DNA of 64,000 bases from Desulforadius tongensis. GTDB lineage: Bacteria; Bacillota; Desulfotomaculia; Desulfotomaculales; Desulfohalotomaculaceae. Numbering within the stretch: the first letter of the stretch is position 1; each line of letters begins with the position of its first letter. Below, in pieces: positions 28,919 through 36,198 of the stretch. The DNA is taken from contig NZ_JAFBCW010000005.1 of NCBI RefSeq assembly GCF_016907915.1, positions 1-64,000 on the forward strand. The letters run 5' to 3'. The notes under the pieces were generated by a model that saw only the letters and a list, made by a program, of their open reading frames with translations, was not told where the DNA came from and searched no databases. A program made the position numbers and the translations under genes.

Positions 28919-30994
28919 ATGCCAATGCCCAACTCCGTTCAGGTTAAGGATACTTTGAAAAGGAATAATGATATTGTAATTGCCGGCCTGATAATCGGCA
29001 TTATTTTGCTGATTATTATTCCGCTGGGGCCCAATATGCTGGACTTTTTCTTAACTATCAGCATTACACTGGGCCTGGTAATTCTATTGATTACCATGTT
29101 TACCACCGAGCCGCTGCAGTTTTCTGTTTTTCCCAGTTTGCTGCTGGTGACCACATTATACCGGCTGGCCTTAAACATATCTTCCACCCGTTTAATTCTC
29201 GGTGATGCCGCTGCCGGTAAAGTAATTCAAGCCTTCGGCAGCTTTGTGGTGGGCGGCAGTTATGTTGTGGGGGCAGTGGTATTTATAATTATTACGGTAA
29301 TTCAGTTTGTGGTTATTACCAACGGTTCCGGCCGGGTGGCCGAAGTAACCGCCCGTTTTACGCTGGATGCCATGCCCGGTAAACAAATGAGTATTGATGC
29401 CGATCTCAATTCCGGCTTGATTAGTGAAGATGAGGCCCGGGCCCGCAGGGAAAGGCTGCAGCGGGAGGCAGATTTCTTCGGGGCGATGGACGGTGCCAGT
29501 AAATTTGTCAAGGGTGATGCCATAGCCGGCATTGTAATAATTTTTATTAACATCATCGGCGGCTTGATAATTGGGATGGTGCAGCATGACATGACTTTAA
29601 GTGATGCCCTGACCACATATATAAAACTGACCATTGGTGATGGACTGGTGAGTCAAATCCCGGCCCTGCTGATTTCCACCGCTGCCGGTATATTGATTAC
29701 CAGGGCCACATCGGAAAACAGTTTTGGTAAGGATTTATCCAGGCAGATTTTTAGCTTTCCGAAGGTTCTCGGCCTGGGGGCGGGGATACTTTTTGTCATC
29801 GGCCTGGTGCCGGCAATGCCCAGCTTTTTATTCTGGGCCCTTTCCGCCGGGTTGGGCTACAGTGCCTATGTCCTGCATAAAGAGAAAAAGCAAAAAGAAG
29901 CGGAAAAACAAGAAAGGGAGGCCCAGCAGGCGCAGGAACAAAGGCGTCAGCCGGAGAATGTATTAAACTACTTCCAGGTGGACCCGCTGGAAGTAGAAAT
30001 TGGCTACAATTTGATCGCCCTGACCGATGAAAGCCAGGGGGGGGATCTGCTGCAGCGCCTGGCAGCGGTGCGGCGCCAGTGTGCCTCAGAACTGGGGATT
30101 TTGGTGCGCCCCATCCGCATTCGCGACAATATGCAGCTGCATCACAACCGGTACGAGATAAAAATTAGGGGAGTACCGGTGGCCGGGGGGGAACTGATGC
30201 CGGGACATTACCTGGCCATGGACCCCATAGGCCAAGCCGTTGATATAAAGGGTATAGAAACCACGGAACCCACATTTAACCTGCCGGCCTGGTGGATAGA
30301 TGAAGCGGAGCGGGAAAAGGCAGAACTAAATGGGTTAACTGTTGTTGACTGCAGCACTGTGCTGGTTACTCACCTCACTGAAGTGATTAAATCCCATTCC
30401 GATGAACTGCTCGGCCGCCAGGAAGTTAAAGAACTGGTGGATATGGTGAAAGAAAGTTCACCGGCAGTGGTGGAGGAACTGGTGCCTGATTTAATGACCC
30501 TGGGCGAGATACAAAAGGTGCTGCAGAATCTGCTGCGCGAAAGGGTGCCGATTAAAGACCTGGTTACCATACTGGAAGCATTATCCGACGGGGCCCGTCT
30601 GAACAAAGATCCGGATTTTCTTACTGAGCACGTGCGCCAGTGCCTGGCCCGTACCATTACCCAGATGTATACCGGGCCGGATAAAAAATTAACGGTAATT
30701 ACTTTACATCCTCACTGGGAGCAAAAAGTAGCCGATTCCATACAGCAAACCCAGCTGGGGCATTACCCGGTGCTGGAACCCGGTGCAGCTAATGATTTGC
30801 TGGATAAGCTGCAGAAAACACTGGAGAGAACAAACATGAAAGGTTTAAACCCGGTGCTGCTCTGCTCACCTAAAATAAGGCTGCCGCTGAGAAGAATGTT
30901 GGAGAGGTACCTGCCTAATTTGGCGGTAATATCGCTCAATGAAGTGATTTCAGGGGTTGAAGTTGAAGCGGTAGGGACGGTGAATCCTGATTAA
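28919..30994 (+). CDS. flhA: Flagellar export gate protein FlhA
   Basis: Nine-membered ring whose membrane part uses the proton gradient and whose cytosolic part docks chaperone-substrate complexes. The membrane half (to about residue 310) contains YRLALNISSTRLIL, the FHIPEP-loop region MSIDADLNSGLISEDEARAR, and helices on either side; the cytosolic half covers the rest. ATG 28919 is 7 bases after GAGGT; an upstream ATG (28904) is also in frame. 691 residues. Overlaps flhF by one base. Confidence 0.97.
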   Translation: MPMPNSVQVKDTLKRNNDIVIAGLIIGIILLIIIPLGPNMLDFFLTISITLGLVILLITMFTTEPLQFSVFPSLLLVTTLYRLALNISSTRLILGDAAAGKVIQAFGSFVVGGSYVVGAVVFIIITVIQFVVITNGSGRVAEVTARFTLDAMPGKQMSIDADLNSGLISEDEARARRERLQREADFFGAMDGASKFVKGDAIAGIVIIFINIIGGLIIGMVQHDMTLSDALTTYIKLTIGDGLVSQIPALLISTAAGILITRATSENSFGKDLSRQIFSFPKVLGLGAGILFVIGLVPAMPSFLFWALSAGLGYSAYVLHKEKKQKEAEKQEREAQQAQEQRRQPENVLNYFQVDPLEVEIGYNLIALTDESQGGDLLQRLAAVRRQCASELGILVRPIRIRDNMQLHHNRYEIKIRGVPVAGGELMPGHYLAMDPIGQAVDIKGIETTEPTFNLPAWWIDEAEREKAELNGLTVVDCSTVLVTHLTEVIKSHSDELLGRQEVKELVDMVKESSPAVVEELVPDLMTLGEIQKVLQNLLRERVPIKDLVTILEALSDGARLNKDPDFLTEHVRQCLARTITQMYTGPDKKLTVITLHPHWEQKVADSIQQTQLGHYPVLEPGAANDLLDKLQKTLERTNMKGLNPVLLCSPKIRLPLRRMLERYLPNLAVISLNEVISGVEVEAVGTVNPD

Positions 30995-32298
30995 TGATCA
31001 TTAAGAAGTATATTGTTGACGAAATGCAGCAGGCCATTCAGCAGATTAAAAGGGAATTGGGCCCGGAAGCAATTATTGTCAGCAGCCATAAAATTCGCGG
31101 CCGGGGAATAACAGGTTTTTTAAAAAGAAAAATTGAAGTTACAGCGGTATTGGATAAAAAAGAAAAAGAAGAAGATCTGAAAATTAAGGCAGTGAAGGAA
31201 TTACCGCCCTCTACCCAGGTGCGGCCGGTGAAGGAAACAGCTGCACCGGCATCAAATGCAGGTATGAAGTCAGCGGGTAAAGAAGAAACCGGTGCGGTGG
31301 TTTACGATAACAGGGGTTTAGTGCGCAGCCGGCCAAAGGCTGAGGGCGGTGATTTGGCCCCCGGTCCCCTTCTGCCCACTGAATTTAAGCCGCTGCTGGA
31401 AGAAGAAATTATGAAATCCATGGAACAAAGGGAAAAGGGAATGCTGTTGAACATGCTGGAACAGCAGTTGGAGGAAATGGGTACTGTACAGGATAAGGAA
31501 TTTAACCGGCGGTGGCTGAAAATTTTAACTGCCATTGATATTGACCGGGGTATTGCCCAGCAGCTTTTGAAGGACCTGGAGGGAATGGTGGCGGGGAGTG
31601 CCGCCGGCCGTTCCGATGATATGGCCCAGGTGGCATTAATTAACCGGGTGGCTGAGCTGTTAAAACCGGCTTATGAAAATTATGAGCGATCTAAAATTTT
31701 AGCTTTTGTAGGCCCGCCGGGAGTTGGTAAAACCACCACGCTGGCTAAGCTGGCCACCCGTTATAAACTGCTGGAGAATAAAAAGATTGCTTTGATTACC
31801 GTTTATACCTACCGTTACGGAACTGCCGAGCAGCTTAAAGTTTACGGCGATGCCATTGATGTGCCGGTGGAAGTGGTGATGACCCCTGCAGAATTGAGGC
31901 AGGCGGTGGAAAGCCACCGGGACAAGGATTATATTTTAATCGATACTGTAGGGCGTTCTTCTAAGAATACCGGGCAGGTGTTAGAATTAAAGGGGTTTCT
32001 TGAGGCCGTTAACGGGCCGAAAGAAATTTACCTGGTAATGGGTGCCGGTATCAAGGATAGAGATTTAATGAGGTTTATAAAGGATTTTCAAATGGTGCAT
32101 TATACCGGGTACATTTTTACCAAGGTTGATGAAACTGAAACGCTGGGCTCAATGCTCAATGTGGTGTTGAGAACCGGTATACCGGTTTGTTATTATACCG
32201 GCGGGCAGAGTATTCCCGATGATATAGAGGATTTGCAGCCGCGGAAAATGGCGCAGCTGGTGTTCAGGAGTGTAGATAGTTATGCTGGGGATAATTAA
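30994..32298 (+). CDS. flhF: Flagellar biosynthesis GTPase FlhF
   Basis: SRP-type GTPase that helps place flagella. The B domain is basic and variable (to about residue 140), then N domain, then G domain with P-loop FVGPPGVGKTTTLAKLA (about residue 237), ALITVYTYRYGTAEQLKVY, DYILIDTVGRSSKN and TKVDETETLGS. 434 residues. The TAA stop lies inside the A-run that precedes flhG; the flhG coding frame continues in the same frame as flhF. Confidence 0.96.
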   Translation: MIIKKYIVDEMQQAIQQIKRELGPEAIIVSSHKIRGRGITGFLKRKIEVTAVLDKKEKEEDLKIKAVKELPPSTQVRPVKETAAPASNAGMKSAGKEETGAVVYDNRGLVRSRPKAEGGDLAPGPLLPTEFKPLLEEEIMKSMEQREKGMLLNMLEQQLEEMGTVQDKEFNRRWLKILTAIDIDRGIAQQLLKDLEGMVAGSAAGRSDDMAQVALINRVAELLKPAYENYERSKILAFVGPPGVGKTTTLAKLATRYKLLENKKIALITVYTYRYGTAEQLKVYGDAIDVPVEVVMTPAELRQAVESHRDKDYILIDTVGRSSKNTGQVLELKGFLEAVNGPKEIYLVMGAGIKDRDLMRFIKDFQMVHYTGYIFTKVDETETLGSMLNVVLRTGIPVCYYTGGQSIPDDIEDLQPRKMAQLVFRSVDSYAGDN

Positions 32299-33138
32299 AA
32301 AAAAAAGGTTAAATCTCAAAACAGCATTCCCACCGCCGGCCCCAGGGTTATTGCTGTCACCAGCGGTAAGGGAGGGGTGGGGAAAAGCAATGCTGCTTTA
32401 AATCTGGCCATAGCCCTGTCCTCCCTGGGGCAGAGGGTGGTTATCATAGATGCTGACCTGGGCATGGCTAACGTGGAAGTGCTGCTGGGAATAACTCCCC
32501 GCTACACTCTTTATGATTTTTTGTATCATAAAAAAGATTTAAATGAAATTTTAACCCCCGGTCCCGGGAATATAAGGATTATTTCCGGGGGCGTGGGACT
32601 GCTGGAGCTGGCTAATTTAGACAACAGGGCCATAAAAAGATTAAGGGATTCCATGTATCATTTTGACAGCGGTGTTGACGTGGTGCTGGTGGATACCGGT
32701 GCCGGGATTAATAAAAATGTGCTGGCCTTCGTGGGGGCGGCCCAGGAAGTGATAATAGTGGTCACTCCCGAACCCACTTCTATTACCGATGCTTACGGTT
32801 TAATAAAGGTGCTGGCCAGTTACAATGTGCACAATGAAGTTAATGTACTGGTAAACAGGGCTGCTAAACGGCAGGAAGCCGGCGATACCTTTTATAAACT
32901 AAAAATAACGGCCCAGCACTATTTACCAAATGTTGATATTAAATACCTGGGGTCTATACCGGAGGACAAAAATGTAATTAGAGCAGTAAAGGATCAACGA
33001 CCCTTTGTGTTATACCAACCAGCCACCCCGGCCAGCAGGGCGGTGAGGGCGGTGGCGGAACAGCTTGCTGGCGGGGTTCAGAAAGAAAGGGGCGGCTTTT
33101 TCGACTTTTTCAGCCGCCTAACCCGGTTATTCAACTAG
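32282..33138 (+). CDS. flhG: FlhG (YlxH) MinD-like ATPase, needing frame correction at an A10 run
   Basis: Partner of FlhF that limits flagellar number. P-loop VTSGKGGVGKSNAALNLAIA, switch I/II (IDADLGMANVEVLLG; VLVDTGAGINKNVLAF) are intact. The frame upstream of the P-loop has no ATG, GTG, TTG or CTG back to the flhF stop at 32296. ATG 32282, behind AGGAG, is in another frame; it reads MLGIIKKK into a run of ten A (32297-32306) and then stops after 39 codons. One extra A, or a -1 shift on the run, joins it to the ATPase. The DQAxxLR activator motif usual at the FlhG N-terminus is not seen. A sequencing error in the run is possible. Confidence 0.75.
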
Positions 33139-34567: not shown

Positions 34568-34591
34568 TTTTCAAAACCGGTGGTGAAAATA

Positions 34592-35368
34592 TTGTTTAGA
34601 GGAATATACACCACACTCAGTGGTATGGATGTCCAGCAGGCCAGATTAAACGTGATAACCAACAACCTGGCCAATATAAACAGCAACGGTTATAAGCGAG
34701 AACATTTAATATCAAAAACCTTTGGCGAATATTTACTTGGCTACCAAAGCCCCCATACCCGGGGGACGACCCCTGTTGGTAATTTAAACATGGGAAGTGC
34801 CGTTTCCCAGGTGGTTACCAGGATGGACCAGGGGCCGCTGGTAAACACCGGCAGGTTTACAGATATTGCCCTGGACGGGGAGGGATATTATGTAGTGAAA
34901 GTTGTTTCCGGCCCGGGAGGAGAGCAGCAGTTATATACCAGGGAAAGCTCTTTTGCCGTGGACAATGAAGGCTATTTAATTACCTCCCGGGGGGACCGGG
35001 TGCTGGGAAAATCGGGAGAAATAAAAATTGGCAGCGGTGAGTTTGCCGCTGCCGCTGACGGGACAATAACAAAAGATGGTAAAACTATTGATCAGCTGCA
35101 AATTGTGGAATTTGTCGATAGCGGTAAGTTAAGGAAAGTGGGAGAAGAATACTTTTCCGCCACCGCTGATGCGGAAATTAAAAATGAAAGCCAGCTCACC
35201 ACGCAGGTGAGGCAGGGCTTTGTAGAAAAATCCAATGTGGATGTGGTTAAAGAAATAACTGATATGATAACGGTGCTGCGAACCTATGAAGCTAATCAAA
35301 AAATGATTCAAACCCAGGATGAACTGCTGGGTAAAGCAGTTAACCAGGTGGGCAGATTAAGGGGATAA
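34592..35368 (+). CDS. flgF: Flagellar hook-basal body protein FlgF (FlhO-like)
   Basis: Rod protein. It carries the Flg_bb_rod start MFRGIYTTLSGMDVQQARLN, NNLANINSNGYKRE, the FTDIALDGEGYYVV central segment and the end FVEKSNVDVVKEITDMITVL. TTG 34592 gives the typical MFRG start and lies 7 bases after GGTGGTG. It is the first of a tandem pair of rod genes after fliA. Confidence 0.9.
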   Translation: MFRGIYTTLSGMDVQQARLNVITNNLANINSNGYKREHLISKTFGEYLLGYQSPHTRGTTPVGNLNMGSAVSQVVTRMDQGPLVNTGRFTDIALDGEGYYVVKVVSGPGGEQQLYTRESSFAVDNEGYLITSRGDRVLGKSGEIKIGSGEFAAAADGTITKDGKTIDQLQIVEFVDSGKLRKVGEEYFSATADAEIKNESQLTTQVRQGFVEKSNVDVVKEITDMITVLRTYEANQKMIQTQDELLGKAVNQVGRLRG

Positions 35369-35406
35369 CTTATTGATTAGCGAAGAATAAACTGGGAGTG
35401 AATGCG

Positions 35407-36198
35407 GTGCTTAAAACAATACAATCCGGCCGCTCGGGGCTGCTGGCCCAGCAGCTGCAGATGGCGGCCATAGGCAATAACCTGGCCAACATCAATACCA
35501 GCGGTTACAAAAGGGATGAAACAAAATTTGCAGAATTGGTGCGCCAAAAGATGGGTAACACCGGAATTCCGGTACTGCCCGGCGGTGAAGAACAGATACC
35601 GGAAGTGGGCGGCGGTGTTCAGCTGGTGGAAATGGGAAAGGCGTTTGAACAGGGAGATTTACAAAAAACCGGCCGCCCCCTGGATTTGGCCATTGAAGGT
35701 GAGGGCTTTTTTGGTTTGAAAAAACCGGGCGGTGAAACTGTTTATACCAGGAGCGGGTCCTTTTCACTAATTGACGGGCGCATTGTCAATGCCGCCGGCT
35801 GTGAACTTTTAATGACCAAAGATGGTAAACCGGTAAAAGAAAAGGACCTGGAAAAATTAAAAACCGCCGGTGAGATATTAGTGGAAAGGGATGGCCGGGT
35901 AACCGCTGTGAACAGTAAAGGACAGCGGGAAGTGGTGGGTGAAATTAAACTGTACCGTTTTGAGAACCCTCGGGCTTTAATTCCGGCAGGGCAGAACATG
36001 TTTACAGCGCAGCCGGGCGGTGAAGTACCCAAGGAAATAACCGGTAAGATACACCAGGGTTACCTGGAAAAATCTAATGTTGATATAATTAAAGAGATGA
36101 CTAAATTAATTGAAGCGCAAAAGGCATACTCTTTTAATGCCCGGTCTATAAAAACAGCTGATCAGATGTGGAGTATGGCCAATAACTTACGCAGGTAA
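35407..36198 (+). CDS. flgG: Flagellar hook-basal body protein FlgG (FlhP-like)
   Basis: Second rod protein of the pair: LKTIQSGRSGLLAQQLQMAA, NNLANINTSGYKRDETKF, PLDLAIEGEGFFGLKKPG, and the end SNVDIIKEMTKLIEAQKAYS. GTG 35407 is 8 bases after GGGAG; an upstream GTG (35398) overlaps it. 263 residues. Assignment as FlgG and not FlgF rests on order and on the conserved end. Confidence 0.88.
   Translation: MLKTIQSGRSGLLAQQLQMAAIGNNLANINTSGYKRDETKFAELVRQKMGNTGIPVLPGGEEQIPEVGGGVQLVEMGKAFEQGDLQKTGRPLDLAIEGEGFFGLKKPGGETVYTRSGSFSLIDGRIVNAAGCELLMTKDGKPVKEKDLEKLKTAGEILVERDGRVTAVNSKGQREVVGEIKLYRFENPRALIPAGQNMFTAQPGGEVPKEITGKIHQGYLEKSNVDIIKEMTKLIEAQKAYSFNARSIKTADQMWSMANNLRR

Follow-up and report, generated by a model that had tools for sequence, protein, structure and literature searches.

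Slippage of RNA polymerase occurs on A-runs of at least 9 (PMC1088944), and on runs of A7 to A11 insertion is preferred to deletion (PMC6260861). In Citrobacter rodentium tssM1, slippage on an A11 run restores the reading frame in about 20% of the product (PMC4256274). The motility genes swrA and flhA undergo phase variation through poly(A)/poly(T) runs at their 5' ends (PMC2831843). A related class, the 'pseudo pseudogenes' (Baranov et al. 2005, PMC1088944), consists of conserved genes in which an indel within a slippage-prone A-run has disrupted a frame that polymerase slippage would restore. The locus described here resembles each of these in part and concerns flhG, which encodes the MinD/ParA ATPase FlhG (YlxH/FleN) that regulates flagellar number.

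The window analyzed is a stretch of 64,000 nt from Desulforadius tongensis (contig NZ_JAFBCW010000005.1, positions 1 to 64,000), in which the flhF-flhG junction reads, from 32265, CAGGAGTGTAGATAGTTATGCTGGGGATAATTAAAAAAAAAAGGTTAAATCTC (Table 1). The flhF stop is the TAA at 32296-32298. The FlhG frame, which is also the flhF frame, opens directly behind it and runs to the P-loop as KKKVKSQNSIPTAGPRVIAVTSGKGGVGKS. As an earlier note on this DNA had claimed, no ATG, GTG, TTG or CTG is present in the FlhG frame between the flhF stop and the P-loop. The first GTG of the frame (32377) is the V codon within the P-loop and was rejected as an internal start for that reason; ATT 32326 was rejected because it has no ribosome-binding site at a usable spacing. 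The nearby ATG, with its AGGAG, lies in another frame and reads MLGIIKKK into the A10 run (MLGIIKKKRLNLKTAFPPP...), ending at a stop at 32401. The FlhG frame is restored to this ATG by adding one A to the run, by removing two, or by a -1 shift on it. The earlier note's account of the ATG, the AGGAG, the A10 run, the shared flhF and FlhG frame and the joining of the ATG to FlhG by one inserted A or a -1 shift was thus confirmed.

Table 1. Features of the flhF-flhG junction (positions in the window).
Feature	Position	Strand	Basis or remark
flhF	30994..32298	+	intact, 434 aa; TIGR03499 FlhF, 210 bits vs cutoff 174
AGGAG, likely flhG ribosome-binding site, within flhF	32266..32270	+	sequence; AGGAG/AGGGG at the corresponding position in congeners
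ATG, most likely the real flhG start, 17-nt overlap with the flhF end	32282..32284	+	ATG and following GGGATAATTAA kept in both congeners, opening the whole flhG frame there
39-codon frame from ATG 32282 as assembled (MLGIIKKKRLNLK...), off the FlhG frame	32282..32401	+	sequence
A10 run, likeliest place of a net one-base length difference	32297..32306	+	sequence; absent from relatives
Start-less open FlhG frame: P-loop ATPase body and C-terminal segment	32299..33138	+	4rz2 alignment; congener identity

Comparison with relatives identifies where flhG begins. In both congeners, the ATG that opens flhG lies within flhF, so that the two genes share 17 nt, and it stands in the same ATG..GGGGATAATTAA context; the N-termini are MRGIIKNFIGVGEHSPGTEGPRVIAV and MRGIIKSGSITSGGEMNSVQGPRVIAV (MRGIIKN... 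and MRGIIKS...). Because ATG 32282 reads MLGIIKKK, like the MRGIIK of the congeners, it is the homologous flhG start, parted from FlhG by one base of the A-run as the earlier note had supposed. Read as A11, the window gives MLGIIKKKKVKSQNSIPTAGP / MLGIIKKKKVKSQNSIPTAGPRVIAV, with 21 residues ahead of RVIAV, equal to the first congener. In four more family members, too, the FlhG N-terminus is short and opens with an in-frame ATG. As the start on one side of the A-run is conserved and FlhG on the other side is intact, a net one-base indel most likely lies in the run. An in-frame flhG start was present in all 49 other FlhG loci inspected across the order, and an A-run of at least 8 near that start in none of them, the congeners included; the arrangement is therefore not conserved and the one-base difference is private. 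The analysis demonstrates that ATG 32282 is the true flhG start, that a single-base break private to this genome separates it from FlhG, and that the ATPase frame is intact and constrained. The 49 loci all have the ordinary in-frame start that the earlier note itself had named as refuting evidence, and they do not support the suggestion that the run is a device for setting FlhG dose. Readthrough of the flhF stop into an FlhF-FlhG fusion, also raised earlier, found no support and was rejected as needless since the relatives have a separate flhG start.

The protein encoded by the start-less frame has a MinD/ParA ATPase body with a P-loop and adjoins flhF, which identifies it as FlhG. Over residues 13-278 it aligns with the solved FlhG 4rz2, to the last residues (E 8e-58); it shares with typical FlhG the body, the P-loop, the C-terminal end and the place behind flhF. 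Identity to the two congeners is 71% and 70%. Private FlhG residues number 13 in the window lineage compared to 11 and 14 in the congeners, and dN is 0.22 and dS 1.5 relative to one congener, the dS being near saturation. By private residues and dN/dS compared to the congeners, no relaxed selection on flhG was seen. This indicates that flhG has not been decaying and that the change either arose recently, is rescued or does not exist in the genome. A second copy of flhG was considered and rejected, as none was found in the genome; the remaining matches within it are weak and MinD/ParA-like.

To place the A10 run in its genomic context, the A/T runs of at least 9 in the genome (2.58 Mb, 61 contigs) were listed and nearly all surrounding frames were checked. 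Twenty-two other coding A/T runs of at least 9 (21 A, one T) lie within long intact frames, many of which are recognizable conserved genes, including those for shikimate kinase, RecX, SpoIIP, RecF, dnaX and YabG (A10). The flhG A10 was the sole run of this length seen to break a recognizable gene. No other frame break was found over 59 genes (16,113 aa) compared with one congener or over 33 compared with the other; frame splits flagged automatically were rejected as frameshifts, since they trace to antisense frames or to the flagellar rod genes at 34580-36198, which are tandem paralogues. The in-frame runs and the absence of another break indicate that homopolymers are not a general weakness of the assembly. 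With 61 contigs, and no match in a 16S search, the genome probably comes from a metagenome assembly. In the case of yabG, a sporulation peptidase gene (L049, G000:C16:30122-30131), the A10 lies in frame near codon 107 and the 292-aa frame is intact, so the gene is useful as an internal check on slippage or on the calling of run lengths.

The occurrence of an A10 is itself unsurprising, with a mean of 2.0 in dinucleotide shuffles of the window and at least one in 75 of 100. Synonymous-codon shuffles of the window genes gave 17.2 expected A-runs of at least 7 compared to 17 observed, 7.0 of at least 8 compared to 2, and 2.9 of at least 9 compared to none in intact genes. Scaled roughly from this one window to the genome, about 117 coding A-runs of at least 9 would be expected and about 21 are seen. 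Depletion from A8-9 upward with A7 at expectation is what a cost of slippage in this organism would predict.

The reading favored here, at a probability of roughly one half, is that the A10 is a genuine and recent out-of-frame length allele, leaky through slippage, and not a conserved recoding switch. The start of flhG would be ATG 32282 over the end of flhF, as in relatives. The A-run would have grown in this lineage from the Lys codons that follow the conserved Ile-Ile-Lys and belong to the variable linker ahead of the ATPase, and the assembled length would put the ATPase off frame by a net -1 compared to an in-frame A11, or +2 compared to A8. RNA polymerase slipping on A10 would give some transcripts with A11 (or A8) and so the full-length MLGIIKKKKVKSQNS...-FlhG, and the effect of the allele is probably softened by such slippage. 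The outcome would be an accidental, leaky and perhaps phase-variable 'pseudo pseudogene'. That slippage rescues FlhG is inferred from its occurrence in E. coli and other bacteria.

A consensus or assembly error, with a true A11 (or A8) and an ordinary flhG from ATG 32282, is the main competing explanation and is tentatively considered the less probable. Homopolymers of about 10 are common miscall sites, flhG is intact in all relatives and under normal constraint, and in a probable metagenome assembly a single miscalled base would look identical. However, the 22 other coding runs, the yabG A10 included, are all in frame and no further break was seen among the 59 compared genes. Together with the lack of relaxed selection, this makes a recent out-of-frame allele likelier than a general assembly fault, and we tentatively infer that the allele is real rather than miscalled. 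A dead flhG within a decaying flagellar cluster would account for the missing in-frame start codon, but is highly improbable because the FlhG frame is open and constrained and the flhA, flhF and sigma factor frames are intact, with no other break seen.

Two further explanations assign the run a role in producing FlhG. Programmed transcriptional slippage on A10, setting FlhG dose and hence flagellar number, would draw on a run that is long enough, on a constrained FlhG frame and on regulatory precedents in tssM (PMC4256274) and Thermus dnaX (discussed in PMC1088944); such long runs are depleted in coding sequence, so the retention of one in a regulator might be significant. It is nevertheless unlikely, since the run is not conserved even within the genus, the unslipped product is a 39-residue peptide and not a second protein, and mutation accounts for one private allele. 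In the broader form in which FlhG level or flagellar number is either set by polymerase slippage on A10 or switched by a change in run length, as in swrA, the proposal remains doubtful. Nothing in the sequences compared points to a control device, whether conserved or programmed. Ribosomal -1 frameshifting of the dnaX type would yield the same protein as an inserted A in the mRNA or a genomic A11, beginning MLGIIKKKKVK in each case. The slippery heptamer A_AAA_AAA (followed by AGG) lies in the proper register for translation from ATG 32282; slipping by -1 on it gives exactly the FlhG frame. However, no stimulator or close downstream structure was found at the usual spacing: for the 60 nt after the run, folding is matched by shuffled sequence (z 0.42), and the single stem, only weakly unusual at z -1.5 to -1.9, begins about 20 nt past the run and is too distant. 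The upstream GGGG is accounted for by conserved overlapping coding sequence, and the arrangement is not conserved among the 49 loci. This is the least likely of the explanations, and with no special structure in the first 60 nt and the stem too distant, polymerase slippage is the likelier leak.

As a leaky length allele, flhG can be compared individually with each described system. Like the 'pseudo pseudogenes', it has homologues that are intact in a single frame, a run of at least 9 at the break and a frame that +1 or -2 restores, and its constraint is compatible with a functional product. Here, the break stands right at the beginning of a gene that regulates flagellar number, and the slippage is putative. 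In tssM1 the interruption also lies just past an A-run and slippage gives the full-length product. However, both tssM1 products are needed and slippage was proven experimentally, whereas in flhG the slippage is predicted and the short product would be 39 residues long. In the motility genes swrA of Bacillus subtilis and flhA of Campylobacter coli (PMC2831843), the frame likewise depends on the length of a short A/T run close to the 5' end; those runs vary within a species (for swrA, at about 1e-4 to 1e-5), whereas the flhG run is known from a single assembly. The conserved run and frame that characterize programmed transcriptional slippage were not found in the 49 relatives. Should the allele be real, flhG would take its place beside swrA, flhA and fliP, motility genes that a change in homopolymer length can break and restore, and it would be a natural case in which to ask whether a cell obtains enough of a regulator of flagellar number from polymerase slippage alone. 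Should it be a miscall, flhG is a gene of the usual kind. Whichever holds, gene-finding programs will overlook flhG at this locus or call it too short.

The N-terminus of FlhG in the window also lacks the DQAxxLR helix of typical FlhG. This motif stimulates FlhF (PMC12826062). The earlier note was correct about its absence, but the motif is missing from 42 of 50 FlhG N-termini of the order, the window counted. The motif is therefore absent here as in most of the order and not as a result of the frameshift, and its absence is, judging from these N-termini, a lineage trait. A short I/V-[IFY]-[KR] motif was present in 18 of the 42 N-termini without DQAxxLR, the window (as A11) counted, compared to 1.8 expected from shuffles, with relatedness uncorrected (L003, L004, L056-L058, L083, L091, L099-L101, L103, L107, L111, L116, L118, L121, L122 and the window at 32291-32299). 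This motif may replace the FlhF-activating helix. Members of family f9 have a similar RI[FY]G at the FlhG N-terminus. One congener also encodes a second FlhG-like ATPase (L005, G001:C1:362140-362880) with a long N-terminal extension, outside the flagellar cluster, which was not found in the genome of the window. FlhF (30994-32298) carries 16 private residues here compared to 4 and 3 in the congeners, an excess that flhG does not share and that would come either from faster change in this lineage or from the two congeners having exchanged flhF.
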